A DNA stretch of 64,000 bases from positions 1 to 64,000 of the forward strand of contig NZ_PDCM01000002.1 in assembly GCF_008634025.1 (NCBI RefSeq), read 5' to 3'. Below the pieces are notes generated by a model. The model searched no databases. It was given only the letters and a program-made list of their open reading frames with translations, and was not told the origin of the DNA. Positions within the stretch are counted from its first letter, which is position 1. Each line of letters begins with the position of its first letter. Source of the stretch: Streptomyces albofaciens JCM 4342. Lineage in GTDB: Bacteria > Actinomycetota > Actinomycetes > Streptomycetales > Streptomycetaceae. Both the position numbers and the translations under genes were made by a program. This document shows, in pieces, positions 10,891 to 64,000 of this stretch.

Positions 10891-12516
10891 TCAGCCCTGG
10901 TCGGCTGTGATCATTTCTGCGGCCCGTTCGCCGACCACCATGGAGGGGGCCATCGTGTTGGCGACCGTCACATGGGGCAGCACCGAGGCGTCGGCGACAC
11001 GGAGGCCGTCGATGCCGTGCACCTGGAGCCGGGCATTCACGACGGCGTCCGCGTCCCGGCCCATCCGGGCCGTGCCGCTCTGGTGCCAGTACGTCTCGAC
11101 GGCGTTGCGCAGGAACAGGTCGAGGGTGTCCGCATCGCAGGACGCAGGGGAGACCTCCCGTTTGGCGAACGGGCGGAGCGCGGCGGAGTTGCCGACCTCG
11201 CGGGCCATGGCGACCGCGGACAGGGCCGAGCGGACGTCGTCGGGGTCGGCGAAGAAGTTCGTCTCGATGTGCGGCTTGGCCAGCGGGTCCGGGCTCACCA
11301 GGCGGACCCGGCCGCGGCTGCCGTGGCGCAGGCGCATGGCGGGCATCAGGGTGAAACACCGTTCTGGCGGCGGGTACTGGGCGGCGCTCTCGGCGGAGAC
11401 GGACGGGGCGGGCGAGAGGTACATGACGAATTCCGGTGCGCCCGGCCGTGTGTCGTCGCCCCAGAAGCAGACGGCCTGGCTGCGTGTGGGCACCGGCATC
11501 GGTACGTCGGCGGCCTCCCACATGCAGGGCAGGCGTATGTGGTCGTCGAGGTTGCGGCCGACGCCGGGCAGGTGCTGGGCCACCGGGACGCCGGCGGAAC
11601 GCAGTTCGGCCTCGTCCCCGATCCCGGAGCGCATCAGGACGGCCGGGGTGCCGATCGCGCCCAGCGACAGCACCACCTCCTGCGACGCGTGAGCGTGCAC
11701 CGGCTTGCCGTCGTGGACGATCTCGACGCCGGTGGCCCGGCCCCCGGAGAGCAGGACACGGGAGACCGTCGCGTGTGGCAGGACCGTGAGGTTGGGCTGC
11801 TCCAAGCGGGGGGCGACGTAGCGGCTGAAGGGGGTCTGCCGTACTCCCGCGTGGTAGTTCTCCTCCCGTACGGCGCAGCCCGCCCCCTTCTCCATCAGGG
11901 CGCCGTTGGAGCTGTCGAAGCGGGGGACGCCGGTGGCTTCGGCGCCGTCGAGGAAGGCGGTGAACAGCGGGTGTACGTCCTGTGCCGGCTGGATCCGCAT
12001 CGGCCCACCACTGCCCCGGCGTTCAGGGTCGGGCGCGCCCTGCCAGTCCTCGATCTTCCGGTAGAGCTCCAGTGCGTGCGCGTAGCCCCACGCGGGCTCG
12101 CCCGTCAGCTCGGCGTAGGAATCCCAGTCGCTTCGGTGCCCGCGCGCCCATACGCCGGCGTTGATGGAGCCGCCCCCGCCCAGACCGCGGCCCGTCGCGT
12201 AGGCGAGCCGGCGCCCGTTCAGGTGCGGGTTCGCCTGCGTGACGTGGTCCCAGGTCCGCTCGGTGCCGAGGTTGGCGGGCCACAGGTCGGGGTTGCGTAC
12301 GCGCTCGTCATCGTCGTCGCCGCCGCTCTCGACGAGCAGCACCGTGACCGCCGGGTCGGCCGCGAGCCGGCCGGCCAGGACGGAACCGGCCGAACCGGCG
12401 CCGCACACGATGTAGTCGAAGGCGGCGCCGTCGTCGATCCGGTCGGCAAGTCCGGTCCGGTGCGGCAGTGTGGCAGCCGTGGCGTCGCCCTGTCCGGGCG
12501 CACTGCTCATGCTCAT
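10891..12516 (-). CDS. GMC family FAD-dependent oxidoreductase
   Basis: This 541-residue enzyme belongs to the glucose-methanol-choline oxidoreductases, which oxidise alcohols using bound FAD. The FAD motif is CGAGSAGSVLAGRLA. GMC signature 1 is GRGLGGGGSINAGVWARG, and signature 2 is LSLGAIGTPAVLMRSGIG. The C-terminal catalytic region has HQSGTARMG and the closing VADASVLPHVTVANTMAP. Of three in-frame ATGs, 12516 is chosen because AAGGAG sits 9 nt upstream; the earlier ATG at 12525 touches that site. A decayed TetR gene lies immediately upstream, so the original regulator may be lost. Choline dehydrogenase-like activity is possible but not shown. Confidence 0.88.
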   Translation of the reverse strand: MSMSSAPGQGDATAATLPHRTGLADRIDDGAAFDYIVCGAGSAGSVLAGRLAADPAVTVLLVESGGDDDDERVRNPDLWPANLGTERTWDHVTQANPHLNGRRLAYATGRGLGGGGSINAGVWARGHRSDWDSYAELTGEPAWGYAHALELYRKIEDWQGAPDPERRGSGGPMRIQPAQDVHPLFTAFLDGAEATGVPRFDSSNGALMEKGAGCAVREENYHAGVRQTPFSRYVAPRLEQPNLTVLPHATVSRVLLSGGRATGVEIVHDGKPVHAHASQEVVLSLGAIGTPAVLMRSGIGDEAELRSAGVPVAQHLPGVGRNLDDHIRLPCMWEAADVPMPVPTRSQAVCFWGDDTRPGAPEFVMYLSPAPSVSAESAAQYPPPERCFTLMPAMRLRHGSRGRVRLVSPDPLAKPHIETNFFADPDDVRSALSAVAMAREVGNSAALRPFAKREVSPASCDADTLDLFLRNAVETYWHQSGTARMGRDADAVVNARLQVHGIDGLRVADASVLPHVTVANTMAPSMVVGERAAEMITADQG

Positions 12517-12649
12517 GCTCGTCATCTCCTTGAAGGCGGGTACTGATTGATTGAATGAATGACGGGTCTCCGCTGTGGCCGTTTTGCGGCTGATGTGGTG
12601 AAGGGGGCGGGGCCAGCCGGTGGTTACCTGGGACGGGCCGAGGGGAGCC

Positions 12650-13020
12650 TGGTGCTGGCTGTTCGATGTCTTGCCGGGCAGGACGGGGAACGGTCGGGCA
12701 GCTCGGCGATGGCGTTGATGCACGGGCAGCCCCGGTGCGAGAGCGCCGGCAGCCCCTCGGCGTTGAAGCGGGGCGGGGCAAGGATCTGGCCCCTGGGCCG
12801 GGCCGGGGTGTTCGGCCTTAGCCCTGCCGAAGGCCGCCTGGTAGTCCGCGGCGTCGAGCCGCAGCCACTCCGCGACCAGCGCGTCCTTGGTCCGAAGTGC
12901 CGGTAGATGACCATGGGGGTCCCGGCCGGCCCGGCGACCGTCTGACGCCCGCCCGCCGGATCCCCTCGCTCGGGAAGAACTCTTGCGCGGCGTCGAGGAT
13001 GCGCTCGCAAGGTGGCAGTT
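12650..13020 (-). pseudogene. Frameshifted TetR family regulator
   Basis: TetR pieces lie in order on the minus strand but in at least three frames. ERILDAAQEFFPSEGIRRAG (about 13013-12955) is the first helix. MVIYRHFG (about 12915) is the recognition helix. Then follow KDALVAEWLRLDAADYQAAF in another frame and GCPCINAIAELPDRS near the end. An intact gene would be about 190 codons. It stands directly upstream of the GMC oxidoreductase gene in the same direction, a usual place for a local repressor. The reading frame cannot be rescued by a single change. Confidence 0.72.
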
Positions 13021-13143
13021 CGGTGCGGTGCGCCGGCCCCACCGGCCATGCCCAGGAGGGTCGGCCGTAGTCAGGAAGGGGCAGGGTGCTGTACGCCGCG
13101 TCCGGCCCCTGGGGTGTTCCGCCCGCTCGGCGGTTTCGTTCGG

Positions 13144-14010
13144 TTACGCGCGTGCTTCGACGCGTGCCAGGTAGTCCCGAACGAGGCCTACGTACGCCTC
13201 GCGGAGCGGCCCCTGCTCCAGAAACCCCATATGGGCTGCGCCGGGCTGTGTTACATGCTCGGAATCCGGAATTCTTGCGGCGATGTCGGCGAGATGGGCG
13301 GGTACGCATTCATCGAATTCGCCACCGAGAACGAGTGTAGGGACCTGAATCCGTTCCAGTGTGCCGAAGATGTCCCAGTTCTTGAGAATGCCGGTCACGT
13401 GGTAGTCCGCGTGGCCGATCATGGTCCGGAACGTCGTCCAGCTCATGAGTTCCGGGTCCAGGCTCATAGCAGAGGTGCGCAGCACGCACGCGCGCAAGTA
13501 CTCCCCTTGGGCCTTCCGGTAATCAGGGTCGTCTGTTTCGCCTCTCAGCTCCCGGCCGTAGGTGCGGTCAAGTACGTTGCCCGGCAGTTTCGCCATCAGG
13601 TCCCGGACTTCCCGCTCGAACCGGGGCACGCTCGCCAGGCCATTGGCGCAGACCAGGCTGGTCCATTCCGGCGCCCGCTCCGCGGCGTACTGCAGGCCGA
13701 GCATCGCTCCCCAGGAGTGGCCGTAGATGTGGGGGCGTTCCAGACCGAGCCCCTCGCAGACCGCGCCCAGTTCGTCGAGAAAGCGGTCCACCGTCAGCAG
13801 CGAGATGTCGTCGATGGGATCCGAACGCCCCACGCCGAGCTGGTCGTACCAGATGACCTCGCGTTCCTGGGCGAGTGGGGTGAAGGCGTCGGACAGCGGG
13901 TCACTCGGGTAACCCGGCCCGCCGTGGACGAGCAGCAACGGCACACCACCGCTGCCCGTTCTGCGGTACCACACCTTGCCCCCCGGCACCGAGATCCTGC
14001 CTTCCGTCAT
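13144..14010 (-). CDS. Proline iminopeptidase-like alpha/beta hydrolase
   Basis: This 288-residue protein has the S33 (prolyl aminopeptidase) layout. The oxyanion motif is HGGPG near residue 30 and YDQLGVGRSD near residue 57. The nucleophile elbow is GHSWGAML (Ser about residue 96), with Asp in LGGEFDECVP and His in GAAHMGF completing the triad. Its ATG overlaps the stop codon of the upstream NTF2-like gene in an ATGA arrangement, so translation is probably coupled. Members cleave N-terminal Pro from peptides, but many act as esterases or in secondary metabolism, and the NTF2-like partner makes a small-molecule role plausible. Confidence 0.87.
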   Translation of the reverse strand: MTEGRISVPGGKVWYRRTGSGGVPLLLVHGGPGYPSDPLSDAFTPLAQEREVIWYDQLGVGRSDPIDDISLLTVDRFLDELGAVCEGLGLERPHIYGHSWGAMLGLQYAAERAPEWTSLVCANGLASVPRFEREVRDLMAKLPGNVLDRTYGRELRGETDDPDYRKAQGEYLRACVLRTSAMSLDPELMSWTTFRTMIGHADYHVTGILKNWDIFGTLERIQVPTLVLGGEFDECVPAHLADIAARIPDSEHVTQPGAAHMGFLEQGPLREAYVGLVRDYLARVEARA

Positions 14011-41722: not shown

Positions 41723-41837
41723 CCCCGAACCCTCCTCTGGGAAGGCACGCGCACCCCTCCTCGGAGAGGCACGGCCATCGACGCGACCGAGCGTTCACTG
41801 ACCGTAATAAAAATTCGTTGTCAAGGCAGGGAGTTAT

Positions 41838-41906
41838 ATGGGTAAGTGGCTGGGACGAGCAGCCCAGTCGGCAAGCTCCGCCACCTGCGACGGCTGTGGC
41901 ATCTGA
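41838..41906 (+). CDS. 22-codon upstream ORF before Hsp20
   Basis: ATG 41838 follows GGCAGGGAG at 4 nt spacing, the best ribosome site in this gap, and encodes MGKWLGRAAQSASSATCDGC-GI. Its stop TGA (41904-41906) lies just after GTG 41896, the likely Hsp20 start, so its translation could control or couple Hsp20 synthesis. Alternatively it is the old N-terminus of Hsp20 separated by a frameshift. The sequence alone does not decide. Confidence 0.4.
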   Translation: MGKWLGRAAQSASSATCDGCGI

Positions 41907-42351
41907 AGCGAAAGGGGAAAGGGAAACTCTTGCGCGCAACGGCGCTCTGGACGGTCTCGACCGGCTGGTGCACCAGCTCGCACACACCGCCGCGACCTCG
42001 GCGGGCGCCGTCATCCCGGCGGATGCCTGGCGCGACGACGACGCGCTCTACGTACAGTTCGACCTGCCGGGCATGGACCGCTCCAGCATCGAACTGACCA
42101 CGGAGCAGAATGTACTGACCCTCCGTGCGCAACGCCCCTCGCCGGTCCCGGCCGACGCCCGGGCCGTGCTCACCGAACGCCCCACCGGACCGTTCTCCCG
42201 GCGCCTGTCCCTGCCCGACGCCCTGGACACCGCAGCCGCCGAAGCGGCCTACGACAACGGCGTGCTCACCTTGCGCATCCCGCTGGCCGCGCACGCCAAA
42301 CCCCGCAAGATCACCGTCTCCGGCGGTACACCCAAGCAGCTCACGGCCTGA
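41896..42351 (+). CDS. Hsp20 / alpha-crystallin small heat-shock protein
   Basis: The 151-residue product (from GTG 41896) has the alpha-crystallin domain: DAWRDDDALYVQFDLPGMDR, SSIELTTEQNVLTLRAQRPS, RRLSLPDALDTAAAEAAYDN and GVLTLRIPLA, where G-V-L-x-L-x-I-P is the family signature. It is an ATP-independent holdase that keeps unfolding proteins soluble. The start is uncertain: TTG 41818 opens the same frame and no start has a good ribosome site, while a 22-codon ORF with a strong site overlaps it. It precedes a dnaK-grpE cluster, consistent with heat-shock control. Confidence 0.85.
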   Translation: MASEAKGERETLARNGALDGLDRLVHQLAHTAATSAGAVIPADAWRDDDALYVQFDLPGMDRSSIELTTEQNVLTLRAQRPSPVPADARAVLTERPTGPFSRRLSLPDALDTAAAEAAYDNGVLTLRIPLAAHAKPRKITVSGGTPKQLTA

Positions 42352-42389
42352 GAAGCCGCCCATCCCGCCCCACCGAAGGAGGTTGAACC

Positions 42390-42551
42390 GTGAGCGCCCT
42401 GCTGTGGCTGCTCATCCCGCTGACCACCGGCATCGCCGCCAGCACCTGGGCCTGGAACGCCGGACGCCACCACCCCGGCCCGCCCGACCGCGACATCTTC
42501 GAAGACCTCGACCACCACCAGCGGCTGCGGACCGCCCTCGGCAACCACTGA
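42390..42551 (+). CDS. 53-residue membrane protein in the heat-shock cluster
   Basis: GTG 42390 follows AAGGAGG at 6 nt, the strongest ribosome site around. The product is one membrane span (SALLWLLIPLTTGIAASTWA) followed by a His/Asp-rich cytoplasmic tail (GRHHPGPPDRDIFEDLDHHQ) ending at 42551. It starts 38 bp after Hsp20 in the same direction and is probably co-transcribed. Similar tiny single-span proteins with a DIFEDL-H tail are common and uncharacterised in Streptomyces. Confidence 0.7.
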   Translation: MSALLWLLIPLTTGIAASTWAWNAGRHHPGPPDRDIFEDLDHHQRLRTALGNH

Positions 42552-42812
42552 CCACCACCGCCGCCGCCATCGTCCCTGCCCGGCCGTGTCACCAGGACGA
42601 CGAACAGGGGCCTGGCCTCGATGGGGGCTCGCCCACAACGCAACCCGGTCTGGCGACGGTGCCGCGCATCTGCCGGGCGAGCCGGTCGAAGCCCTGGAAG
42701 AGTTCCGTACGAAGGAGGACCGTCGTCGCACGCCTTTGCCTGGTCACTTCCGTCCGTCCGGGCCTGGGAGCCCGGAGCGCCTTGTCTTTGCGTCTGCCCG
42801 CAAAGACGCTGC

Positions 42813-42842
42813 CTTGACAATGCCCCGCTCAAGTTTTATCTC
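42813..42842 (+). promoter_or_regulatory. HAIR-like HspR operator overlapping the J-dnaK-grpE promoter
   Basis: CTTGACA-ATGCCCC-GCTCAAG (42813-42833) matches the HspR-associated inverted repeat (CTTGAGT-N7-ACTCAAG) in length and in 11 of 14 arm positions. Its left arm contains TTGACA (42814-42819), a perfect -35, and 17 bp further lies TATCTC (42837-42842) as a -10. HspR bound here would block the promoter until heat shock. The J-like gene starts about 60 bp downstream. Confidence 0.75.
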
Positions 42843-42901
42843 TATCGGTAGGCAAGTCTGTCCGAACTCGCAGCTCGCGGCTGGTGGGGAGGCGACTTGA
42901 A

Positions 42902-43264
42902 GTGCGGGATCGGCACCGGACGACGAATCTGACGGACCTGTACGCGGTCCTGGGAGTGCACCCCTCGGTTACGGCCGAGATGATCACCTCCGCTTTCCGC
43001 GCCCGCGTGCGGGAACTGCGTCCCGACACGCGCGTCGACACCGACACGGCGGAGCGGTACGGCCGGCTGCGCGCCGCGTACGACACCCTCCGCGACCCCG
43101 GGCTGCGCGCCGCCTACGACCGCGAGCACACCGTGCCCGCCCCCACCCCGGCCCCGACCCCGGCCCCTCCGGTGCATCGGGTCGTGGCAGTCCGGGTGGA
43201 CGGTGGTGTGCCGCCCGAGCCGCCGCTGCGAGTGGGACCGGTCCGGTGGGAGCGGAGAGCCTGA
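42902..43264 (+). CDS. J-domain-like protein lacking the HPD histidine
   Basis: The 120-residue protein begins with a J-domain: [60 protein letters not shown]. In the loop that activates Hsp70 ATPase, the obligatory His-Pro-Asp is Arg-Pro-Asp. A Pro-Ala-rich linker ([13 protein letters not shown]) and a short tail follow; there are no zinc-finger or client-binding domains. GTG 42902 is chosen because GGGGAGG lies 9 nt upstream. It is the first gene after the HAIR operator and precedes dnaK by 62 bp. It may recruit DnaK without stimulating it, or use Arg in place of His. Confidence 0.75.
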
Positions 43265-43326
43265 AGCGGACGTCGTCCGGATCCGCGAGCCCGGCAGTTT
43301 CCGGCAACCGTGAGGAGGAGAACAAG

Positions 43327-45213
43327 ATGGCGCGCTCGGTCGGCATCGATCTCGGCACCACCAACTCGGTCGTCTCGGTCCTCGAAGGCGGCGAGCCCAC
43401 CGTGATCACCAACACGGAGGGGGCCCGGACGACACCCTCGGTCGTGGCCTTCGCCAAGAGCGGTGACGTGCTGGTGGGCGAGGTCGCGAAACGGCAGGCC
43501 GTCACGAACGTCGAGCGCACCGCGCGCTCCGTGAAGCGGCACATGGGGGACCACGGCTGGCGGTTCCCGGACAGCGGGGACATCGACGGCCGGCGGTACA
43601 CCGCGCAGGAGCTTTCCGCGCGCGTCTTGCAGAAGCTGAAGCGGGATGCGGAGGCGTACCTGGGCGAGGACGTCACCGACGCCGTCATCACCGTCCCCGC
43701 CTACTTCGACGACACCCAGCGGCAGGCCACCAAGGAGGCCGGTGAGATCGCCGGCCTGAACGTCCTGCGGATCATCAACGAGCCGACGGCGGCGGCGCTG
43801 GCGTACGGGCTGGACAAGGAGAGCGATCAGACGGTACTGGTCTTCGACCTCGGCGGCGGCACCTTCGACGTCTCGCTCCTCGAAATGGGCGAGGGCGTCA
43901 TCGAGGTGAAGGCCACCAACGGTGACACCCGCCTGGGCGGCGACGACTGGGACCAGCGGATCGTCGACCATCTCGTCAAGCAGTTCAAGAACGGGTACGG
44001 CGTCGACCTGTCCAAGGACAAGATGGCCGTGCAACGGCTGCGCGAGGCCGCGGAGAAGGCGAAGATCGAGCTGTCCTCGTCCACCGAGACGACGATCAAC
44101 CTGCCCTACATCACCGCGTCCGCCGAGGGCCCGCTGCACCTGGACGAGAAGCTCACCCGCGCGCAGTTCCAGCAGCTGACGGCCGATCTGCTGGAACGCT
44201 GCAAGGGGCCGTTCCACAACGCGGTCAAGGACGCGGGGATCAAGGTGTCCGACATCAACCACGTGATCCTGGTGGGCGGTTCGACGCGGATGCCGGCTGT
44301 CACGGACCTGGTGAAGGAACTCACGGGCAAGGACCCGCACAAGGGCGTCAACCCGGACGAGGTCGTGGCCGTCGGCGCGTCGCTGCAGGCCGGTGTCCTC
44401 AAGGGCGAGGTCAAGGACGTCCTGCTGCTCGACGTCACCCCGCTGTCCCTCGGCATCGAGACCAAGGGCGGCATCATGACCAAGCTCATCGAGCGGAACA
44501 CGACGATCCCGACCAAGCGCTCGGAGACCTTCACCACCGCCGAGGACAACCAGCCCTCCGTGGCCGTGCAGGTCTACCAGGGCGAACGGGAGATCGCCGC
44601 CTACAACAAGAAGCTCGGCATGTTCGAGCTGACCGGCATCGCCCCCGCTCCGCGCGGCGTGCCGCAGATCGAGGTCACCTTCGACATCGACGCGAACGGC
44701 ATCATGCACGTCTCGGCGAAGGACCTCGGCACCGGCAGGGAGCAGAAGATGACCGTCACCGGCGGCTCGGCGCTGCCCAAGGACGACATCGACCGCATGG
44801 TCCGGGAGGCGGAGCAGCACGCCGAGGAGGACCGCAGGCGGCGCGAGGCGGCCGAGACCCGTAACCAGGCCGAGCAGCTCGTCTACCAGACCGAGAAGCT
44901 CATCGCGGACAACACCGACAAGATACCCGCGGACGCGAGGAGCGAGACCGAGACGGCGCTCGCCACCTTGAAGGAGCGGATGAAGGACGAGAAGGCGGAC
45001 ACGGCGTCGGTCCGGCAGGCCATGGACCGCGCCGCACAGGCGGCCCAGAAGATCGGCACGGCGCTGTACGAGCGGTCGCGCGCCGAGACCGCGGGCGCCT
45101 CCGGGGCGCCCGGCGGCTCCGACGCTTCCGGCGGCTCCGGAGGGCCCGGCGGATCCGACACCGAGGTGGTGGACGCCGAAATCGTCGACGACGACCGGCC
45201 GGAAGCGAGGTAG
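43327..45213 (+). CDS. dnaK: DnaK (Hsp70) chaperone, accessory copy
   Basis: The 628-residue Hsp70 has all hallmarks: phosphate-1 loop [16 protein letters not shown], connect and phosphate-2 [20 protein letters not shown], adenosine loop [17 protein letters not shown], interdomain linker [16 protein letters not shown], and a substrate-binding domain with a helical lid and Gly/Ser-rich tail ending EIVDDD. It folds proteins with J-protein and GrpE help in the cytoplasm. GAGGAGG stands 8 nt before the ATG. Because Streptomyces carry a housekeeping dnaK-grpE-dnaJ-hspR operon, this cluster, with its reversed-order grpE and no hspR, looks like a second set. Confidence 0.95.
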
Positions 45214-45215
45214 TC

Positions 45216-45761
45216 ATGGGAAACGGCCGACCGCGCACGGAGAACACCGAGTTGCAGCGCCTGCTGGAGGAGCGCACGGCGGATCTCCAGCGGGTGAAGG
45301 CCGAGTACGACAACTACCGCAAGCGGGTGCGGCGGGACCGGCTGGCCGTACGCGAGGCCGCCGTGGCCAATGTGCTGACCGCCTTGTTGCCGGTACTGGA
45401 CGCCGTGGACCGCGCGTGCGAGCACGAGCCCATGACGCCGGGCCTCAAGGACATCACCGGCACCCTGGAGACCCGGCTCGCGACGCTCGGAATGCAGGAA
45501 GTCGGCAAGGAGGGAGAAAGGTTCGACCCCACCCGCCACGAAGCCGTGACCCACCACCTCGACACCACTGCAAGGCACCTGACCTGCACGAAGGTGCTGC
45601 GCCCCGGCTACCGGCTCGGTGACCGTCTGCTGCGTCCGGCGTACGTGGAGGTCACCGGGCCGCCTCCGGCCGACGGGCAGCCGGGCAGTCGGGCCCGGAA
45701 CGAACCACGGGTGGCCGGCAGTCAGGTTGAGGGACGGAACGTTCCCGCCCTTCACCGCTGA
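45216..45761 (+). CDS. grpE: GrpE nucleotide exchange factor
   Basis: The 181-residue protein starts 2 bp after the dnaK stop. It has the long N-terminal coiled coil (ELQRLLEERTADLQRVKAEY, then DNYRKRVRRDRLAVREAAVA) and the C-terminal beta domain (FDPTRHEAVTHHL, LRPGYRLGDRLLRPAYVEV). The R-P-G-Y-x-x-x-x-x-L-R-x-A-x-V motif is the GrpE signature. It releases ADP from DnaK. The C-terminal tail after EVTGPPP is Pro/Arg-rich and not conserved. Translation is probably coupled to dnaK. Confidence 0.92.
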   Translation: MGNGRPRTENTELQRLLEERTADLQRVKAEYDNYRKRVRRDRLAVREAAVANVLTALLPVLDAVDRACEHEPMTPGLKDITGTLETRLATLGMQEVGKEGERFDPTRHEAVTHHLDTTARHLTCTKVLRPGYRLGDRLLRPAYVEVTGPPPADGQPGSRARNEPRVAGSQVEGRNVPALHR

Positions 45762-54732: not shown

Positions 54733-55782
54733 TCAATCCTTCAGGAGGCCACGCTCACCGACGAGGTAACCCGCGTGCATGCGGGTCTTCGCACCCAGCC
54801 GCCGCATGATGACTTCTATGTGGCGTTGGCAGGAGCGCAGGGACATGTTCAGTCGGCGCGCAATCACTCGATCCTCGACACCTTGCACCATGAGACGCAA
54901 GATGGTGCGCTTGGTGCTTTCGGAAATCTCGTCGACCACCTGGCGCTCGCAGGAGGTACTGAACGTGACGCCCCGGGTCCACGCCCGCTCGAATGCGGCG
55001 ACCGCGAAGGCGATCACGGTGGAGTCCCGCACCAACACGATTCCACCTGAACGAGTGTGATCAGGGAAAACCGCCACCTGCCCGTCAAAAACGGTCAGCG
55101 GCATGAAGCTGTCGCTCCGAGTGCGGTACGACGTATTGCACCGCGTCTGGGCCTGCATGCGCTCGGTCAGGTCCCGCCGGAAGCGCGCCGTGTGCGGGAA
55201 CAGGATGCGGACCTCGACATCCGCACCGAGTATGGACTTGCCGCCTGAATGAAAATACGGCATGGCCGCGAGAGCGGCGGCCGCATCCGGCTCGGAGAGC
55301 AGGATCTCCGAGCGGCAAGAGGCAGCCAACTGCAAGGTCAGATCGGCGGCTTGGGAAGACGAGGTGACGACCTCCACGGACGCGGGTCCCGCATGGCGTG
55401 CCACTCCTTCCTGGTAGACATTGGTGAGCTCGTACAGCACCGCGCGCATGCGGTCGACCTCATGTTGCCGGTGTTCGATATCGCGCTGCAGGGGCGCAAT
55501 GAGCTCGACTCGCGCCGTCTCAGGCGACACCGCGAAGTATTTCGAAGGCAACGTCGGGTCGACACGGACCAGATGCATCCGAAGCAACCTGCCGATCGAC
55601 GCCTCGATCTCCTGCTGCTGCCGCCCGGTCCCTGAGGCGATTTCCTTGACGGAGCAATGCGCGACCCCGGCAATCCAGCTGTATATCTCGCGGTCCTCAC
55701 TTCGCAGAAACCCCGTCTCGGTCTCCGTGGACCGCGACCTGAGTGACCCCTCATCGCGTGTGACGCGCGACACATTAGGCAC
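54733..55782 (-). CDS. TrmB-like / LuxR-type HTH regulator
   Basis: The 349-residue regulator has an N-terminal TrmB-like winged helix (EDREIYSWIAGVAHCSVKEI, EIEASIGRLLRMHLVR), a central region resembling phospholipase-D-like sensor domains (SRSEILLSE-type, here CRSEILLSEPDAAAALAAMP), and a C-terminal LuxR helix-turn-helix (ILRLMVQGVEDRVIARRLNM, SLRSCQRHIEVIMRRLGAKT). Such proteins often control secondary-metabolite or stress genes. GTG 55782 is supported by GAGGGA 6 nt upstream. It lies left of the lanthipeptide cluster, divergent from the next regulator. Confidence 0.82.
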   Translation of the reverse strand: MPNVSRVTRDEGSLRSRSTETETGFLRSEDREIYSWIAGVAHCSVKEIASGTGRQQQEIEASIGRLLRMHLVRVDPTLPSKYFAVSPETARVELIAPLQRDIEHRQHEVDRMRAVLYELTNVYQEGVARHAGPASVEVVTSSSQAADLTLQLAASCRSEILLSEPDAAAALAAMPYFHSGGKSILGADVEVRILFPHTARFRRDLTERMQAQTRCNTSYRTRSDSFMPLTVFDGQVAVFPDHTRSGGIVLVRDSTVIAFAVAAFERAWTRGVTFSTSCERQVVDEISESTKRTILRLMVQGVEDRVIARRLNMSLRSCQRHIEVIMRRLGAKTRMHAGYLVGERGLLKD

Positions 55783-56050
55783 GGTGGAATCCCTCGTCCT
55801 GCCGCCGGGCGGAAGTACGACCCCCTGGCTGGCGTTCTCTTGCTGGGCCGGAAGCCTAACCTATCCGTGTCACCGGAACCGGCATACGCGGCGCGGTCGG
55901 CATCTACGCCTTCTCGTGGTCGCAGGTATTCGGCAGCCGCCCTTCTGCCCGCGCGGATTACCGCCACATGAGATGACGTCAAGGCGCATGGTCCGTTCGC
56001 CTCCGGCAGACACGCAAAACTTCACGCCACGAAACGGAAATGTCAAACTC

Positions 56051-57004
56051 GTGCAACACATAACTCTTTGTGTCGACGACTTGGCGCGTACCAGAATCAT
56101 CGGCCCACTCAGCCGGCACGTCGAGGCGATTTTCGCAGTGGATGCCCTGCGCAACACGCAGAGCGACTTCCTGCAAGCCTGGCGCCGTAGAGTGATCGCG
56201 ACGATAGCGCATCCCGGCAAGGAGCTGGATGGAGCCCGGCAGCTGACGAGGGTCAGCGGCGGCTCCCGGGAGGTTCTGTCCGCCTGGTCGGGCATCGTAA
56301 AGGCGCCGGGTACGACCCACTCCAGCACCCCGGGAGTACAGAGAGCACATTTAGCAGCTGCCGTCGAAGAGATGTGCCGAGTGGCCGTGCGACCGCACTG
56401 GAGACGCGTTCACGCTCACCTCGCCTCGGCCCGGGACTTCCGCCGGGACACCATGTGCCGTGACGGAATCGAGGCTCTCCTGAACAGCCTGGGCCCGGGA
56501 ATACGCTGGAAGGCGCCCGTGCTGGAAATCAACTCCGCAGGCATGGCACCTGTCGTGCCGAACGGGCGCGGCCTGCTGCTGTCCCCTTCGCTCTTCCTCC
56601 AGGGGGACGCCGCGGTGCTTCCGTCGCTCCCGGGCGAGGCGGGGAGCAGTCCGGTCCTGATTTTCCCTGACCGCCCAGGTGGAGATCACTGCTCACTCCT
56701 GGACGAGGAACCGCCGTCCACGCCTGCCGCAAGCCGCCTGCCGCAAGAGAGCCTGGCTGCCCTGCTGGGCAGGACCCGGGCAGCCATCCTCCAGGCATTG
56801 CGTGACGGCTGCGGCAACGGCGAACTCGCCGAGAAACTGGGGATCACCCCGGGTGCGGTGAGCCAGCACACCAGCACACTGCGGAACGCCGGGCTGGTCT
56901 CGACCCGCCGCAGCGGCGGTCGGGTCGTGCACACCGTCACCACGCTCGGTCGCCATCTTCTGCACGCCGGCCCGGACGCCGACGAACCGTGTGCCACCAC
57001 ATGA
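56051..57004 (+). CDS. ArsR-like winged-helix regulator with large N-terminal domain
   Basis: The 317-residue protein ends in an ArsR/SmtB-type winged helix: LGRTRAAILQALRDGCGNGE, LAEKLGITPGAVSQHTSTLR, NAGLVSTRRSGGRVVHTVT. The first 230 residues (HITLCVDDLARTRIIGPLSR, DALRNTQSDFLQAWRRRVIA) match the actinobacterial DUF5937-type sensor region found with such HTHs. GTG 56051 is chosen at the family start; its ribosome site is weak. It points toward the lanthipeptide synthetase gene 256 bp downstream and may regulate it. Confidence 0.78.
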   Translation: MQHITLCVDDLARTRIIGPLSRHVEAIFAVDALRNTQSDFLQAWRRRVIATIAHPGKELDGARQLTRVSGGSREVLSAWSGIVKAPGTTHSSTPGVQRAHLAAAVEEMCRVAVRPHWRRVHAHLASARDFRRDTMCRDGIEALLNSLGPGIRWKAPVLEINSAGMAPVVPNGRGLLLSPSLFLQGDAAVLPSLPGEAGSSPVLIFPDRPGGDHCSLLDEEPPSTPAASRLPQESLAALLGRTRAAILQALRDGCGNGELAEKLGITPGAVSQHTSTLRNAGLVSTRRSGGRVVHTVTTLGRHLLHAGPDADEPCATT

Positions 57005-57260: not shown

Positions 57261-59921
57261 GTGGACCCGAAATATGGGGTGTATATCGTCGCGGATCCCC
57301 ATTGGTATGAGCCACTGGAACGCTGTGACGATGTCGCCTCGCGGTTCTCTTTGGCCGAGCGTGAATTACCTGACGGGTGGAAACGGGACCGGTATGGCAT
57401 CTGGGAGATTCTCACCCCTATTGGGGGGCCGCAGTTGCCCAACCAAGGCTGGAAGATTCACGTCACCGCCACGCCCGATACCGCAGAGAAGACCATCGAG
57501 CAGACCTGGGCAGTGTGTCGGCGGCTGAACCTTTCCTGGAAGTTCCTGCGCAGCCGTCGCGTCACGCATGTGCTCAACAGCAAGTACGCCAGCCGCGCCG
57601 CCAGCGGAAAGGTCGTCACCGTCTATCCGCGTGATACCGAAGAGCTGCGCATTGCCCTCACCGAACTCGATGCGGTACTTGGCGGCCGCCCCGGTCCGTA
57701 CATCCTCTCCGACCACCGCTGGAACACGGGACCGGTGTCGGTCCGGTACGGGGCCTTCACGCTGATGTGGTGCGAACTGCCCGACGGCTCACGGGTGCCG
57801 GCACTGCGCGATCCGCAGGGCAACGCCGTCCCCGACCGGCGTCGGCCGGCCTTCACCGTTCCCGACTGGGTCGACATCCCGGACTTCCTCACCGCCAGCC
57901 TTGCCGCAACGGCCGGGTGCGCTGACATCACGCTCAACGGCTATACGGTGCTCATGGCCCTGCACTTCTCCAACGGTGGTGGCGTATACCTGGCCGAGGC
58001 CCCCGACGGCACCCAGGTCGTCTTGAAGGAGGCGCGCCCGCACGCCGGTCTGGACGCGGCCGGCGCTGACGCGGTGGCGCGGCTGCGCAACGAATGGTCG
58101 GCCCTGGAAGCCGTCGGCCACCTGCCGTTCGTCCCACGCCCCATCGAGTACTTCACCGTCTGGGAGCACCGCTACCTGGCCATGGAGCATATCCAGGGGG
58201 AATCGCTCAGCACGTGGATGGGCCGCGACTACCCGCTCACCCGGCATGAACCCGATGAGCGGGTACGGGCCACGTACACCACGCTGGTCATCGACTACTT
58301 GGGGCAGGTGGAGTCCGCCGTCGAGGCCCTGCACGAGGCGGGGCTGGCCTTCGGCGACCTCCACCCGCACAACATTCTCATCCGTGACGACGACACCATC
58401 GCCCTGGTGGACTTCGAGACCGCCACGGCTGTCGACACCGAACGCACCACCGTGCTCGGCGCCCCCGGCTTCATCGATCTGTCACTCACCGGCGCCCGCG
58501 AGTGCGACCTCTACGCTCTGGGCTGCTGCCAGCTTTCCGCGGTCATGCCGCTCACCGGCCTGATACAGCGCACGCCGGCGGTCGTCGGCCACCTGATCGA
58601 GATGGCCACCACCGCCTTCCCGACGCTGCCGGCCGCATACGTCGAGCGGATGGCGGAACGCCTGGCCCTGTCCCCGACCGTGCGCCCCCACCTTCCCGGA
58701 TACCGGACCGACGCGGTGCCCGCGCTCACCTCACCGCGCGCCCCCTCTCTGCTGCGCGGCATTGACCGGGCCGCCGGCACCACCCGCACCGACCGGCTCT
58801 TCCCCGGCGATATCGCCGGGCACCGGGACGGTGCGCAGCTCGGCCTCGCCCACGGAACACCCGGAGTCCTCCTCGCCCAGCTGAGCACCGGCTCCTGCGT
58901 AGACCCCGAGCACCTGAGGTGGCTGGAACGCGCGGTCCGGCGGGCGCCGGCCGGCACCCCGCTCGGTCTGTACGACGGCCTGGCCGGCACGGCATGGCTG
59001 CTGCACCGGCTCGACAACCCACTGGGTGAAGAACTGATCGACCGCGTTCTCTCCAGCCGGCTGCCTTCCTCGCCGGGACTGTTCAGCGGACTGACCGGCA
59101 TCGCCCACCTTTTGTTGGACGTCGGCGTGCGTAACGAAGCTCTCACACTGGCAGCGGCCGTTCGGGACCGCATCGGCGAGGACGGCGCGCTGGACCGCCC
59201 CGGCCTGATGTACGGCTGGTCGGGACCAGCCGTACTGCTCGCCCGCTGCGCCCACCTGACCGGCGACGAGGAGTGGGCCGAGGCCGCCGCGACTGCTGTC
59301 CGCGCTGACCTCAAGCATGCGCGGGAGCTGGACGGAACCCTCCAGATGAGCAGTTCCCGACGGCTGCTGCCCTACCTCGCCGAGGGCTCGGCCGGAGTCG
59401 CCCTGGCAGCCATGGCACTGCCCGGCACGCAAGCCGCCGAGATGGACGTCCACGCCATCGTGACGGGGGCAGCACACGCCGCAGCGGTCCACACCGTGGC
59501 CCAGGGCGGCCTGTTCAACGGCCGGGCCGGTCTTGCCTACTTCCTGTCCCACGCCACTGCCCACGTACCGCAAGCGCGCAGGTGGGCCGAACACCAGCTG
59601 CGCCTGCTGTCCCTGCATGTGGCCGACCACGACGGCGGACAGGTCCTCTACGGTGACCAGCTCCTGCGCCTGTCCACCGACCTGGCCACCGGCGCCGCCG
59701 GCGCCCTGCTGGCGATGCAAGCAGCCAAGACGTCCGGCGCGCCCCTGCTGCCTGGTGCTCACCCGACCAGAGCTGATCACCGGCCGCAGCGGCCCGCCGG
59801 ATCCTGTGCATCCGCACGCGGAGAGGAGGTGCCCGATCATGACGAACGTTCTCGCACTGCAGGAACTCGCCGAGGACACCCGCCTGGAGGGGCTGAGCAC
59901 CATCAGCTTCATCGGCTGTGA
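57261..59921 (+). CDS. Class III lanthipeptide synthetase (LanKC)
   Basis: This 886-residue trifunctional enzyme phosphorylates Ser/Thr in a precursor peptide, eliminates phosphate and cyclises with Cys. The N-terminal lyase domain starts YGVYIVADPHWYEPL; KIHVTATPDTAEKTIEQTW is conserved. The kinase domain (about 225-480) shows VVLKEARPHAG (Lys), YLAMEHIQGESLSTW, FGDLHPHNILI (catalytic Asp365) and VDFETA (metal-binding Asp384). The C-terminal LanC-like domain (about 525-825) has GLMYGWSGPAVLLARC, but NGRAG stands where zinc-binding LanC proteins have CHG, so it is class III, not IV. GGAGGAA precedes GTG 57261. The last ~65 residues are Arg/His-rich and run over the precursor gene, so the native stop may have been lost. 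Confidence 0.93.
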   Translation: MDPKYGVYIVADPHWYEPLERCDDVASRFSLAERELPDGWKRDRYGIWEILTPIGGPQLPNQGWKIHVTATPDTAEKTIEQTWAVCRRLNLSWKFLRSRRVTHVLNSKYASRAASGKVVTVYPRDTEELRIALTELDAVLGGRPGPYILSDHRWNTGPVSVRYGAFTLMWCELPDGSRVPALRDPQGNAVPDRRRPAFTVPDWVDIPDFLTASLAATAGCADITLNGYTVLMALHFSNGGGVYLAEAPDGTQVVLKEARPHAGLDAAGADAVARLRNEWSALEAVGHLPFVPRPIEYFTVWEHRYLAMEHIQGESLSTWMGRDYPLTRHEPDERVRATYTTLVIDYLGQVESAVEALHEAGLAFGDLHPHNILIRDDDTIALVDFETATAVDTERTTVLGAPGFIDLSLTGARECDLYALGCCQLSAVMPLTGLIQRTPAVVGHLIEMATTAFPTLPAAYVERMAERLALSPTVRPHLPGYRTDAVPALTSPRAPSLLRGIDRAAGTTRTDRLFPGDIAGHRDGAQLGLAHGTPGVLLAQLSTGSCVDPEHLRWLERAVRRAPAGTPLGLYDGLAGTAWLLHRLDNPLGEELIDRVLSSRLPSSPGLFSGLTGIAHLLLDVGVRNEALTLAAAVRDRIGEDGALDRPGLMYGWSGPAVLLARCAHLTGDEEWAEAAATAVRADLKHARELDGTLQMSSSRRLLPYLAEGSAGVALAAMALPGTQAAEMDVHAIVTGAAHAAAVHTVAQGGLFNGRAGLAYFLSHATAHVPQARRWAEHQLRLLSLHVADHDGGQVLYGDQLLRLSTDLATGAAGALLAMQAAKTSGAPLLPGAHPTRADHRPQRPAGSCASARGEEVPDHDERSRTAGTRRGHPPGGAEHHQLHRL

Positions 59922-59928
59922 CACCTGA
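59839..59928 (+). CDS. Class III lanthipeptide precursor peptide
   Basis: A 29-residue peptide with AGGAGGT 8-10 nt before its ATG. The leader MTNVLALQELAEDTRLEG contains L-A-L-Q (residues 5-8), the amphipathic L-x-L-Q box recognised by class III synthetases. The core LSTISFIGCDT holds Ser20-x-x-Ser23-x-x-x-Cys27, the S-x-x-S-x(2-5)-C pattern that becomes labionin or lanthionine rings, as in SapB and labyrinthopeptin-type peptides. Only one ring motif is present, with Thr21 and Thr29 as extra dehydration sites. It begins 83 nt inside the synthetase frame and precedes an exporter set. Confidence 0.9.
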   Translation: MTNVLALQELAEDTRLEGLSTISFIGCDT

Positions 59929-59942
59929 TGGCTCTCAGCCAT
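59928..59942 (+). terminator. Hairpin immediately after the precursor gene
   Basis: ATGGCT-CTC-AGCCAT forms a perfect 6-bp stem that begins at the last base of the precursor stop codon. Such hairpins after lanthipeptide precursor genes can stabilise the precursor mRNA or attenuate transcription into the transporter genes, which start 84 bp later. Confidence 0.5.
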
Positions 59943-60025
59943 GAGAGAGGGGTGCGGGGGGCGCCACGTCGAGTGTGGTCTCTCCGCACCTTCTCCAGCC
60001 GATCGCTCTGTGAAGGACAGCAACC

Positions 60026-61975
60026 GTGTCTGTGGCGCCCCCCTCCCCGCCCCCTCTGAGCATCCCCCGCCTCACCCCCACCCGCCTTCTCCTGTCGGAG
60101 GTACGGGTGTATCCCGGGCGGGTGATCGGCGTGGCGGCAGCGTGCTGCGCCACCGCGGCGGGGGTCGGGGCCTGTCTGTTGCTGCTGCTCGGCGCGAGTC
60201 TGGCCGATCATCAGGCGGACTCGCCCGAAGCGGCCGCCGCCCAAGGCGCTCAGCAGATCATGGGGCTGCTGATGTCCATGCTGCTGATGTGCGCGGTCCT
60301 GGTCACCGGCTCCACCGTCTCGCTGTGGACGGGACAGCGGCTGCGCCAGTTCGCCGTCCTCAGGGCCCTGGGGACCACCGCCGCCCGGCTGCGGCTGATG
60401 GTGGCCGCGGACGTGGCACGCCTGGCCCTGGTCTCGGCGGCCGTCGGTGCCGCAGCCGGAGCCCTGCCGCTCGCAGTGCTCGGCCGTCACTTGCTGATCG
60501 AGCAGCAGATGTGGCCCGCCGGCACCTCGCTGCCGCCGCCCGTCCAGATATGGGGCGTCTGCGCCGCCGTGTGCCTGGCGACCGGCGGCATCGGCGTACT
60601 TGCCGCGCTGCTGAGCGTGCGGGCCGCAGGACGGGTCAACGCGATCGACCTCCTGAAGGACCACGAGAGCGCGCCCGGACTCCAGCGGAGTCGGGCCCGG
60701 TTGATCACCGGTCTGTCCTTGGCGTTGCTGTGCGGGTCCCTGCTGCCCTATATGGTCCTCTCGTCGCTTCCGGCGAAAGTACGCGCCGGCATCCCCACAG
60801 CACTGGCCCTGCTCGTCATCCCCACTCTGGCCGTGCTGGCCCCGTGGATCATCCCGCCGCTGACCCGACCGCTGTGCGCGGTCCTGCGCGTGCTGGACCG
60901 GCGCGTGGGCGCCGTCGCCACCGCAGGCCTGCGGGCCACGCCCGCCCGCACCGCGGCCCTGGCCGTTCCCGTCCTGCTGGCCGTGGGGATCACCGCCTGC
61001 ATGCTCGGCGCCGGCGCCACCCTGGGTCGCGCGACCCAGCAGGAGGTCGCATCGGCGCTCCGGGCCGACGCGGTGATCAGCGCGGAACCGGGAGTTCGGC
61101 TCCCGGCCAGTCCCGGCCCGCTCCCTGGAGCCACCGCCACCCCCGTGGTGGCCACCCAGGTCACCGTGCCCGGCCGCAAACGCAGCTCAGCGCCCAAGCC
61201 GGTCCGTGCCTGGGGCGTGGACGGACGCGTGCTGACACGCGTGCTGGACCTTTCCGCGCGGGAGGGGGACCTCACGAAGGTCGCCGAGGGCACCTTCGCC
61301 GCAGGTGCCACCTTCGCTGACGAGGCGAAGTGGAAGATCGGCCAGTCCGTCGACCTGACGCTGGCGGACGGGACGACACAGCGGTCCACCCTCGTCGCGA
61401 CCTACACGCGGGACCTGGCGTTTCCCCGCATGATTCTCCCGCGCGCCACCGCCCTCGCCCACACCGCCTCCGCCGCTGCCGACCGGATCTTTTTGACCGG
61501 ACCGGGCAACGCCTGGCCCGCGGCGAAAGGCCAGACCGTCGCCTCACGCGAGGAATACGCGCAGACCTTCACCCGCAGCCCCGGCGACGACCTGGCCGCC
61601 CGGCTGATCGTGGCAGTGGTCGCGGCATACGCACTGCTGGCGGCGGCCAACACCAGTGCCCTGGCGCAGCGGGACCGGGCGGCGCAGCGCGCCCACCTGC
61701 GGGCCTTGGGGCTCAGCCGGTTCCAGATGCTGCGCTGTGTGCTGTACGAGGCACTGGGCGCAGGGGCGGTCGGGGCGGTGCTCTCCGGCCTGGTAGCCGT
61801 GGTGTGCCTGGTGCCGCTGTCCGTGACGCTCAGCCTCGGTCCGCTGCCGACGGTCGACGCGCCGTGGACCGGGGGTGTACTGGCGGCTGCCGCCGTGGCC
61901 CTCGGCGTCCCCGCCGTCCTGACGGCCCACCCGCTGCTGGCCGTCCAGCGGCAGTTCGCCCGGAGAGGCCAGTGA
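60026..61975 (+). CDS. FtsX-like ABC transporter permease
   Basis: The 649-residue permease has about eight spans in two FtsX-type halves. The first half includes VIGVAAACCATAAGVGACLL and MGLLMSMLLMCAVLVTGSTV with the RLRQFAVLRALGTTAARLRL coupling helix (A-L-R-A-L-G). The second half has LIVAVVAAYALLAAANTSAL, RAHLRALGLSRFQMLR and GVLAAAAVALGVPAVL. A soluble extracytoplasmic region lies between them. It pairs with the ABC ATPase at 63329 as a MacB-like exporter, probably for the lanthipeptide or for self-protection. GTG 60026 is preceded by AAGGACA. Confidence 0.9.
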   Translation: MSVAPPSPPPLSIPRLTPTRLLLSEVRVYPGRVIGVAAACCATAAGVGACLLLLLGASLADHQADSPEAAAAQGAQQIMGLLMSMLLMCAVLVTGSTVSLWTGQRLRQFAVLRALGTTAARLRLMVAADVARLALVSAAVGAAAGALPLAVLGRHLLIEQQMWPAGTSLPPPVQIWGVCAAVCLATGGIGVLAALLSVRAAGRVNAIDLLKDHESAPGLQRSRARLITGLSLALLCGSLLPYMVLSSLPAKVRAGIPTALALLVIPTLAVLAPWIIPPLTRPLCAVLRVLDRRVGAVATAGLRATPARTAALAVPVLLAVGITACMLGAGATLGRATQQEVASALRADAVISAEPGVRLPASPGPLPGATATPVVATQVTVPGRKRSSAPKPVRAWGVDGRVLTRVLDLSAREGDLTKVAEGTFAAGATFADEAKWKIGQSVDLTLADGTTQRSTLVATYTRDLAFPRMILPRATALAHTASAAADRIFLTGPGNAWPAAKGQTVASREEYAQTFTRSPGDDLAARLIVAVVAAYALLAAANTSALAQRDRAAQRAHLRALGLSRFQMLRCVLYEALGAGAVGAVLSGLVAVVCLVPLSVTLSLGPLPTVDAPWTGGVLAAAAVALGVPAVLTAHPLLAVQRQFARRGQ

Positions 61976-63318
61976 CTGCAGCGCCGCCGGGGCCGGCACT
62001 GGGCAGACCGTTCTGGCTGCTGTTCGGCGAGGAGGCCGCGTCAGCGTTCGGAACAAGCGCCTCGGTCATCGCGCTGCCGGTGGTCGCGATGCGGGCCTCC
62101 GGGGATGTCCGGCAAGCCGGGCTGGCGAGCACGGCGTTGTCCGCGGGCATTCTCCTGGCCCGTCTGCCCGCCGGAGTGTGCGCGGACCGATGCAACCGCC
62201 GGACGCTGCTGCGCTCCGGCAATCTGCTCGGCGCGGCGATCCTCGCGACTCTGGCGCTGCTCCAGTCGCAAAAAGCCCTGTGCCTGCCCGTGCTGGCGCC
62301 TGCCGCGCTCCTTTTGGGCATGGCCGGAAGTACCCTGGTCCCGGCCGAGAACGTCGCCGTCCGGACGTTCGTGCACCCCGACCCTGTCCCGAAGGCCTTG
62401 TCGTTGATGCAGGCACGCACAGCCGTGTCCATGATCGCCGGGCCGGTGGCCGGCGGCGCGCTGCTCACGGTGGAACCGGCGTGGGTCTTCACCCTCGATG
62501 CCGCCACCTACCTCCTCGCGGCAGCATGCGTGGCGGCCCTGCCACCGAGGGCAGGGTTCATCGGCGCCGGGCAGCTCACACTGAAGGCAGCCTGCGACGG
62601 CGTCCGTTTCCTGTGGCGCTCGCCGTTCCTGCGATACGCCGCGGTCAATGCCGCTGTCCTGAACCTGATCTTCAACGGTCTGTTGATCGTCATCATCACC
62701 TCGGCCGGCAGCGGAGAGCGGGCCGGTCTGGGCATCGGGTTGCAGACCGCGGCGATCGGGGCCGGGGCCCTGGGAGGTTCTCTGATCGCGGCTCCGGTGG
62801 CCCGGCGTCTGCCGGCAGCGCGCGGGATCGCGTTGTCGACCGGCGCGATCGCTGTGGCATTGACTTGCTTCGCGCTCGTGCCCGGCGGCGCGGCTGCGGC
62901 GTTCCCGCTCGCCGTCGCCTCCGCTTTCGGACCGGTGGTCACCGTCTTGCTGACCACCGCGCAGATGCGGATGACTCCGGCTGAGCTTCAGGGCCGGGTG
63001 CACAGCGGGACCAGTTTCCTCGCTCAGGCCGCCTCCCCGCTGGCCCCGACTTCCGCCGCCGTGTCCACCCATGCCTTCGGACTTCTTCCGACCGTGCTGG
63101 GAGCCGCGCTGGTGGTGGTCCTCCTCGCTCTCGTCGGCAATGTCGTCACCGCCCGCCACATCCCCGTCTCATCACCAGCCACGGCTGGACGCACCGCGGC
63201 CGGCGGAGCCGGTGCTGAGACGACCGACGCCCGCGGAACCAGCGCAACCGAGCTGCCGGGCACGGGCCAGGACACCGGAGCCGGTGATCAGAAACCAACG
63301 CTCGGAAACCAGGAATGA
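61972..63318 (+). CDS. MFS transporter in the lanthipeptide cluster
   Basis: The 448-residue protein has 10-12 spans of the MFS_3/enterobactin-exporter-like type: FWLLFGEEAASAFGTSASVI, ARLPAGVCADRCNRRTLLRS (motif A) and MQARTAVSMIAGPVAGGALL. It starts in a GTGA overlap with the permease gene, so the genes are coupled. It could export the mature peptide or a by-product. The last ~50 residues are a hydrophilic Thr/Gly-rich tail. Having both an MFS and an ABC exporter in a class III cluster is less usual. Confidence 0.88.
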   Translation: MTAAPPGPALGRPFWLLFGEEAASAFGTSASVIALPVVAMRASGDVRQAGLASTALSAGILLARLPAGVCADRCNRRTLLRSGNLLGAAILATLALLQSQKALCLPVLAPAALLLGMAGSTLVPAENVAVRTFVHPDPVPKALSLMQARTAVSMIAGPVAGGALLTVEPAWVFTLDAATYLLAAACVAALPPRAGFIGAGQLTLKAACDGVRFLWRSPFLRYAAVNAAVLNLIFNGLLIVIITSAGSGERAGLGIGLQTAAIGAGALGGSLIAAPVARRLPAARGIALSTGAIAVALTCFALVPGGAAAAFPLAVASAFGPVVTVLLTTAQMRMTPAELQGRVHSGTSFLAQAASPLAPTSAAVSTHAFGLLPTVLGAALVVVLLALVGNVVTARHIPVSSPATAGRTAAGGAGAETTDARGTSATELPGTGQDTGAGDQKPTLGNQE

Positions 63319-63328
63319 GGTACCGCAC

Positions 63329-64000
63329 ATGACTCCGGCACACACCCCGCCCAGCCACCCAGATGATCATCCGGCAGCCGCTGCCTACGGCCTCACCAAG
63401 GTCCACGACATGGGCGGCCACCGGGTCACGGCGTTGGACAAGGTGTCCTTGGACATCCCCCGAGGGCACTTCACCGCCATCATGGGTCCCTCGGGCTCCG
63501 GTAAATCCACCCTGTTGCATTGCCTGGCCGGGCTCGACTCCCCGTCCTCCGGCGCGGCCTGGATCGGTGAGGTGAATCTGACCGAGCTGTCGGACCGGCA
63601 GCTGACGCTGATGCGCCGGGACCGGATCGGTTTCATCTTCCAGGCGTTCCACTTGCTGCCGACCCTGACTGTCTTGGAAAACATCACCCTGCCCACGGTG
63701 ATCGCCGGTAAGCGCCCGGATCCGCAATGGCTCACCGAGGTGATCGCCACGCTGGGCCTGCGGGACCGGCTGGCCCACCGGCCGCCGCAACTGTCCGGCG
63801 GGCAGCAGCAACGAGTGGCCTGTGCCCGTGCGATGCTGAGCCAGCCGGAGATCATCTTCGCGGACGAACCCACCGGGAACCTCGATTCCCGGGCAGGCGC
63901 CGAGGTGCTGCGGCTGCTTCAGGAGTCGGTCCACCGGCTCGGCCAGACCATCGTCATGGTCACGCACGACCCGGTGGCCGCCTCCTGCACCGACCGTGCG
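63329..64000 (+). CDS. ABC transporter ATPase (partial, cut by window end)
   Basis: The first 224 codons of a MacB/LolD-type ATPase: Walker [10 protein letters not shown] (residues 53-61), Q-loop [20 protein letters not shown], signature [15 protein letters not shown], Walker [14 protein letters not shown] and H-loop MVTHDP. The family length is about 230-260 residues, so little is missing. ATG 63329 follows GAGG 8 nt upstream, 8 bp after the MFS stop. It should power the FtsX-like permease encoded two genes upstream. Confidence 0.93.

Follow-up and report, generated by a model that had tools for sequence, protein, structure and literature searches.

Gene content of a class III lanthipeptide locus

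The DNA analysed here, referred to as the window, comprises the first 64,000 nucleotides of contig NZ_PDCM01000002.1 of Streptomyces albofaciens JCM 4342 (assembly GCF_008634025.1), and its right end carries the genes of a class III lanthipeptide cluster, in which a short precursor peptide (LanA) with a single ring motif is encoded at the end of the gene for a LanKC synthetase. The features of the locus are as follows:

56042..57004, + strand: ArsR/HTH_5-type regulator, probable cluster regulator (Pfam HTH_5 near the C-terminus, 36.5 bits)
57261..59921, + strand: LanKC class III synthetase (lyase-kinase-cyclase), 886 amino acids (NF038151; Pfam RamC_N, Pkinase and LANC_like)
59839..59928, + strand: LanA precursor, 29 amino acids, 29 codons (NF038154; ribosome-binding site ggagaggaggtg upstream)
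60026..61975, + strand: FtsX-like ABC permease, 649 amino acids (Pfam FtsX, two stretches)
61972..63318, + strand: MFS transporter (Pfam MFS_1 and MFS_3; start assumed to be a GTG, overlapping the stop of FtsX)
63329..64000 in the window, + strand: LolD/MacB-type ABC ATPase, gene end at 64102 (Pfam ABC_tran)
54733..55782, - strand: LuxR/TrmB-like regulator, possibly linked (GerE domain)

An earlier note, made from the sequence alone, had named a class III synthetase, an FtsX permease, an MFS protein and an ABC ATPase as the cluster, and NCBIfam and Pfam confirm all four genes. The extent it had given was too narrow: the ArsR-type gene upstream of LanKC (56042-57004) is probably part of the cluster, and the ATPase frame continues past the window to the equivalent of position 64102, in the adjoining stretch of the same genome (L009). 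The closest NCBIfam model of this ATPase is LolD, with a score below the model cut-off, and the LolD/MacB-type protein is likely the partner of the FtsX permease.

The synthetase scores 875 bits against the NCBIfam class III synthetase model NF038151 (cut-off 575) and 337 bits against the class IV model, far under the cut-off of 650. These scores, the three Pfam domains and the precursor motif support the class III assignment of the earlier note, and the closest solved structures are class III LanKC enzymes according to their depositors' labels. The motifs GWKIH, SGK, VLKEARP, GDLHPHN and VDFE of the lyase, kinase and activation parts are conserved and intact. Moreover, the cyclase domain lacks the Cys/Cys/His zinc set, a class III feature that separates it from class IV; a zinc-free cyclase has been described for ThurKC (PMC10604976). 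The conserved part of the protein stops near residue 836, and the last ~50 codons are unconserved and read through into the precursor gene.

The precursor translates as MTNVLALQELAEDTRLEGLSTISFIGCDT, with an LxLQ-type leader box, LALQEL, at residues 5-10 and a core region, STISFIGCDT, holding one SxxSxxxC (S20, S23 and C27), which fits the labionin motif SxxSx(2-5)C. It reaches 26.7 bits against NCBIfam NF038154 (lanthi_III_a, cut-off 22) and therefore belongs to a curated kind, for which the model makes no statement on structure or function; the match aligns residues 1-25 with positions 1-39 of the 41 in the model and so leaves out part of it. The 29-residue precursor with its leader box and single motif, as first noted, is thus confirmed by translation and by the model match, whereas the core length of ~11 residues given with it is a guess. 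When all in-frame starts are considered, the window contains one open reading frame (ORF) of 20-80 codons with a leader box and S..S...C, and it is preceded by a strong ribosome-binding site; 200 simulated windows (first-order Markov) contained three such ORFs in total, none with a ribosome-binding site. The precursor motif exceeds chance.

Relatives, rarity and genomic surroundings

When the genomes of 84,980 species were searched with exact short peptide patterns, an approach that is not exhaustive, 24 loci with a LanKC relative were retrieved. Five Streptomyces synthetases are 62-81% identical to that of the window, and the remaining 19 loci lie at or below 38%. The five loci, from S. chattanoogensis (L010), S. 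rimosus (L011), S. acidiscabies (L012), Streptomyces sp. L-9-10 (L013) and S. flavofungini (L014), all keep the gene order ArsR - LanKC - precursor(s) - FtsX - MFS - ABC: an ArsR homologue (42-80% identity) stands upstream of LanKC in each, and homologues of FtsX (57-88% identity), the MFS protein and the ABC ATPase are present in each. The gap between ArsR and LanKC measures 257 bases in the window, ~140 in L010 and L011, and 955-1143 in L012-L014. FtsX and MFS homologues are absent at 1e-6 from the two-motif loci L015, L016 and L021, where ABC matches are 30-37% identical; the transporter type therefore differs there.

The five relatives encode 13 precursors (two in L010, two in L011, three in L012, two in L013 and four in L014), twelve of which carry one SxxSxxxC in 28-31 residues, one L013 peptide being counted from its next start (otherwise 32 residues). 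The thirteenth, from L014, is longer (40 residues) and carries an additional, Thr-led motif; it was seen only in frame translation and was left out of the precursor alignment, which thus has 13 rows (the window and the twelve short relatives). Residues L5, L7, Q8, E9, L10, S20, S23 and C27 are invariant in all rows, and every row matches lanthi_III_a at E up to 1 (best 3.1e-7). Furthermore, ggaggtg precedes 12 of the 13 precursor starts and gaggtg the other. The core STISFIGCDT recurs unchanged in one S. chattanoogensis copy, with a single synonymous change in its DNA, and the leader differs from the two copies of that species by five synonymous to one and six to one non-synonymous changes. 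No second, degenerate precursor was found in the window, where blastn queries taken from the second precursor copy of L010 and that of L011 returned only the known gene.

Some features of the relatives stand apart from these shared ones. The four L014 precursors lie in tandem (~12430-13270), and the one with the Thr-led second motif (LSTLSLTGCHPVTTISVGSCH) is perhaps an intermediate between one-ring and two-ring forms. Several L013 and L014 cores end in Cys-His, so that metal binding or a His cross-link is conceivable; single-Cys peptides are described as enriched in His (PMC11251773). In L025, an Actinomycetaceae metagenome-assembled genome with a more distant LanKC, a single-motif precursor (position 12546, VSTLSVIPPCPG end) is directly followed by a LolD-like ABC ATPase (12772-13482, 37% identical), where the contig ends. 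This pairing speaks against a sharp line around the subfamily.

Searches of genus genomes found few members of the subfamily. Besides the own genome, only G047 among 61 genus genomes has a close synthetase (85% identity); it matches at the contig coordinates of L011 and is apparently the same S. rimosus assembly. The synthetase ranked next by score has 42% identity, with values of up to 44% among partial matches. When 392 genus genomes were searched with a DNA pattern for NVLALQEL, four matched, and the real members are again the own genome and G047. The match in G050 lies beside another lanthipeptide-synthetase-like gene with precursors of three to five Cys (judged by eye) and that in G166 falls within a longer frame lacking the motif, and neither was counted as family. 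A further set comprised the own genome, 12 of the genus and 8 of the order; of these 21, only the own genome passed E 1e-200. Carriage of the subfamily on plasmids was likewise rejected: 89 plasmid records match LanKC, every one below 60% identity.

In a tree of 38 LanKC rows the window and L010-L014 form a clade with support 100/100 on a long stem (1.23), which L052 joins in what was flagged as a possible long-branch artefact. A background scan of 18 LanKC loci of the genus, chosen as the best-scoring matches and not by random draw, found two-motif precursors in 17; the other is L052, whose short precursors (positions 1044 and 1207) have the leader LQELEEET and a Cys placed ahead of the Ser residues (WPCANSSHSS), an order reminiscent of the 'reverse labionin' group in PMC11251773. 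The own genome holds a further LanKC locus (L060:5137, - strand, C2 near 4221136) with a 28-residue single-Cys precursor, MSIVLDLQGLEVPAEEAARVSSTVSSHC, that scores 31.2 bits against lanthi_III_a, and its SapB/AmfS precursor is encoded at a separate locus, L059 (61.8 bits). The genome therefore contains two one-Cys class III loci and one of the SapB/AmfS type.

Pfam scans of selected ORFs around the cluster identified, on its left flank, a MarR gene and another MFS gene in addition to the LuxR/TrmB-like regulator. The right flank holds genes for a nitronate monooxygenase and an ALF-repeat protein as well as an IS4/5-type transposase. The LuxR/TrmB-like regulator has an 86% identical homologue in L011 and no match at 1e-6 in L010, L012, L013 or L014. 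The transposase frame (L009:12778-14301, ~66777-68300 in window coordinates) is a possible sign of mobility. Elsewhere in the window, at 41818-45761, an Hsp20-like ORF, a DnaK ORF (43246-45213) and a GrpE-like ORF (45216-45761) are clustered, as judged by eye from their translations.

A proposed pathway and its competitors

We regard it as very likely that these genes form a functioning class III lanthipeptide cluster whose product is a one-ring peptide, which would be trimmed by an enzyme encoded elsewhere and exported; the cluster is real and, judged from its sequence, probably functional. The sequence itself gives the gene content, the intact catalytic motifs and the precursor with its conservation, and from these and the named protein families we infer the ring type, cut site, protease, transport direction and regulation, the mechanism following the description of ThurKC (PMC10604976). 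LanKC would bind the LALQEL box of the precursor, its kinase would phosphorylate Ser20 and Ser23, and possibly Thr21 and Thr29, and its lyase would eliminate phosphate to give dehydroalanine residues. In the zinc-free cyclase the thiol of Cys27 would then add to one dehydroalanine and the resulting enolate to the second, closing a single labionin over S20/S23/C27; if the second addition did not take place, the ring would be a plain lanthionine. Removal of the leader would leave ~10-12 residues. For STISFIGCDT the calculated [M+H]+ is 1007.450 after loss of two waters and 989.440 after loss of three; one additional Leu gives 1120.534 and 1102.524, and Gly-Leu gives 1177.556 and 1159.545. FtsX with the LolD-type ATPase, and the MFS protein, would serve peptide export and/or self-protection of the producer, and the ArsR-type protein would control the operon; that FtsX/LolD and MFS act in export is inferred from their protein families and from their constant linkage in six loci.

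Comparison of the relatives bears on how the leader could be removed. An S9 prolyl-oligopeptidase gene lies between MFS and ABC in L012, L013 and L014, and a search with the L013 protein found near-full-length orthologues in the genomes of these three loci, one weak match in S. rimosus (E 4.5e-4), none in the own genome at E up to 1e-3 and none in S. chattanoogensis; the own genome has 16 other Peptidase_S9 domain matches, one of them under the cut-off. A Pro stands two residues ahead of the first core Ser in seven of nine precursors of L012-L014 and in none of the five of the window, L010 and L011; two of these five have Pro directly before the core Ser, and the window precursor has no Pro. 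The pairing of a linked S9 peptidase with Pro at the core border is a lead, drawn from rows that are related by descent. FlaP cleaves after a Pro, and AplP-type M1 proteases encoded outside the cluster serve class III peptides (PMC10885120). Seven M1-peptidase matches occur in the own genome, and our best guess is that an AplP-type M1 enzyme encoded elsewhere removes the leader.

Several observations weigh against a working cluster of this kind. No protease gene was seen in the window cluster, and there is one precursor where each relative has two to four. The core shows no synonymous and five or six non-synonymous changes against the two S. rimosus copies, and the leader two synonymous to three and three to two; since strict conservation fails in S. 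rimosus, the case for precursor conservation rests on S. chattanoogensis and the invariant columns. The LanKC frame overlaps the precursor gene by 83 bases, unlike in all five relatives, where the stop precedes the first precursor (by two bases in S. rimosus); this run-on could reflect the loss of a stop codon, with the two genes overlapping in translation, or it could be a sign of decay. Finally, ThurKC Ser726, Phe770 and Asp771 align with Ala (PYLAEG) and Phe-Asn (GGLFNG) of the window LanKC (chain numbering shifted by 3), so that the proposed Cys base, Asp771, meets an Asn. This last point is tempered by the same alignment, in which only one of 38 LanKC rows has Asp at that position, and PMC10604976 cautions against relying on plain alignments in this cyclase region.

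The competitor that survives best keeps the cluster and changes the ring: one Ser would be joined to Cys as a simple lanthionine, with at least one dehydroalanine or dehydrobutyrine left over. We consider this possible, at well under even chances. Depending on the class III peptide, SxxSxxxC is converted to lanthionine or to labionin (PMC7268733), which speaks against a firm labionin assignment. The spacing, however, fits the labionin motif SxxSx2-5C (PMC11251773), two SxxSxxxC motifs yield two labionins in durhapeptin (PMC13380574), and both Ser residues are invariant throughout the aligned precursors.

Decay, in which the lone precursor and the LanKC frame without its usual stop would be remnants giving little or no product, appears unlikely. 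The single precursor, the run-on frame, the fact that no linked protease was seen and the mostly non-synonymous leader and core changes relative to S. rimosus would all suit it, but all frames are open, the catalytic motifs are intact, the core peptide is unchanged relative to S. chattanoogensis and the leader changes there are mostly synonymous.

A noursin-like peptide, with a labionin and a copper-binding histidinobutyrine bridge, would account for the single Cys, the LQEL leader, the S9 peptidase of three relatives and the Cys-His ends of some; the window precursor lacks any His, and the noursin spacing of Ser3/Ser7/Cys15 with Thr8-His11 is unlike SxxSxxxC (PMC10206099). We consider it highly improbable, and for want of His it was rejected for the window core, a verdict that does not cover the Cys-His relatives. 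A further alternative, in which the short ORF arose by chance and the true precursor is encoded at another place, could draw on its mere 29 codons and on the overlap with LanKC; it can be practically dismissed in view of the NF038154 match, the homologues with invariant residues at the same place in five species and the simulated windows.

Returning to the reading as a working one-ring cluster, we tentatively extend it to the subfamily as a whole. Its members may be the smallest stand-alone lanthipeptides, with 9-12 residues and a single labionin. They might be made as small combinatorial sets of one to four precursors per cluster, each set perhaps served by separate FtsX/LolD/MFS genes for export and immunity and by a dedicated ArsR-type regulator. 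The leader protease could have been swapped between a branch with a linked prolyl oligopeptidase and Pro and the window branch with an unlinked enzyme, and the products could conceivably be signals or tiny membrane-active peptides, unlike SapB-like surfactants. We hold this joint picture to be plausible but rather less likely than its opposite.

Relation to known lanthipeptides

The SapB/AmfS peptides (NF033212) share the LanKC chemistry, the LxLQ leader and the SxxSxxxC motif with the window peptide, but they have two motifs where it has one, and the window precursor does not match NF033212 (cut-off 25 bits) at E up to 1. In lipolanthines, avionin forms from a C-terminal Cys with a decarboxylase, and the cluster carries decarboxylase and acyl-chain genes. 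The window peptide ends in Cys-Asp-Thr, not in a C-terminal Cys, and a lipolanthine was ruled out on this ground; no decarboxylase or acyl-chain genes were found among the selected neighbouring ORFs given to Pfam. Lipolanthines (microvionin and others) are similar in their single Cys and labionin-derived ring (PMC11251773) and differ in their acyl chain and avionin (PMC10435860). Noursin, a characterised one-Cys class III peptide of the nor cluster of Streptomyces noursei, has one labionin, an LELQEL leader and an S9 peptidase (PMC10206099), the last found here in three of five relatives; it differs in core spacing, in binding copper and in its histidinobutyrine bridge between Thr and His, the latter a residue that the window core lacks.

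A 2024 survey predicted 179 single-Cys lanthipeptides, which resemble the window product in their one Cys, labionin motif and type III synthetase, and named lipolanthines as the only characterised ones (PMC11251773); noursin also has one Cys (PMC10206099). The same survey counts, in 2785 genomes, zero clusters with only lyase-type dehydratases and a single-Cys peptide as sole candidate (PMC11251773), the very sort to which the window cluster belongs.

The earlier note had further proposed that the product is probably an undescribed member. No report of it was found in open-licence full text, where neither the leader and core strings nor phrases for one-ring lanthipeptides had a match, and no mention of FtsX or ArsR was found in the open-licence papers that one further search retrieved; in so far the proposal holds. 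The kind, however, is already known from NF038154, noursin and the 179 predictions, and the core is not unique, as S. chattanoogensis encodes the same ten residues. Since one-Cys class III peptides are known (noursin, lipolanthines), the window peptide is another case of a known kind, while the architecture of the Streptomyces subfamily is apparently unreported. With a precursor of 29 residues, and with ORFs below 30 residues discarded in the survey of PMC7268733, large surveys are poorly placed to see this group.

Two uses follow from the locus and its relatives. The linked peptidase, paired with Pro at the core border, amounts to a leader-processing rule that is open to testing. Moreover, what determines labionin versus lanthionine formation is listed as an unanswered question in PMC10604976, and the window precursor, with one motif and three ring residues, is a minimal natural substrate for asking how LanKC makes that choice.

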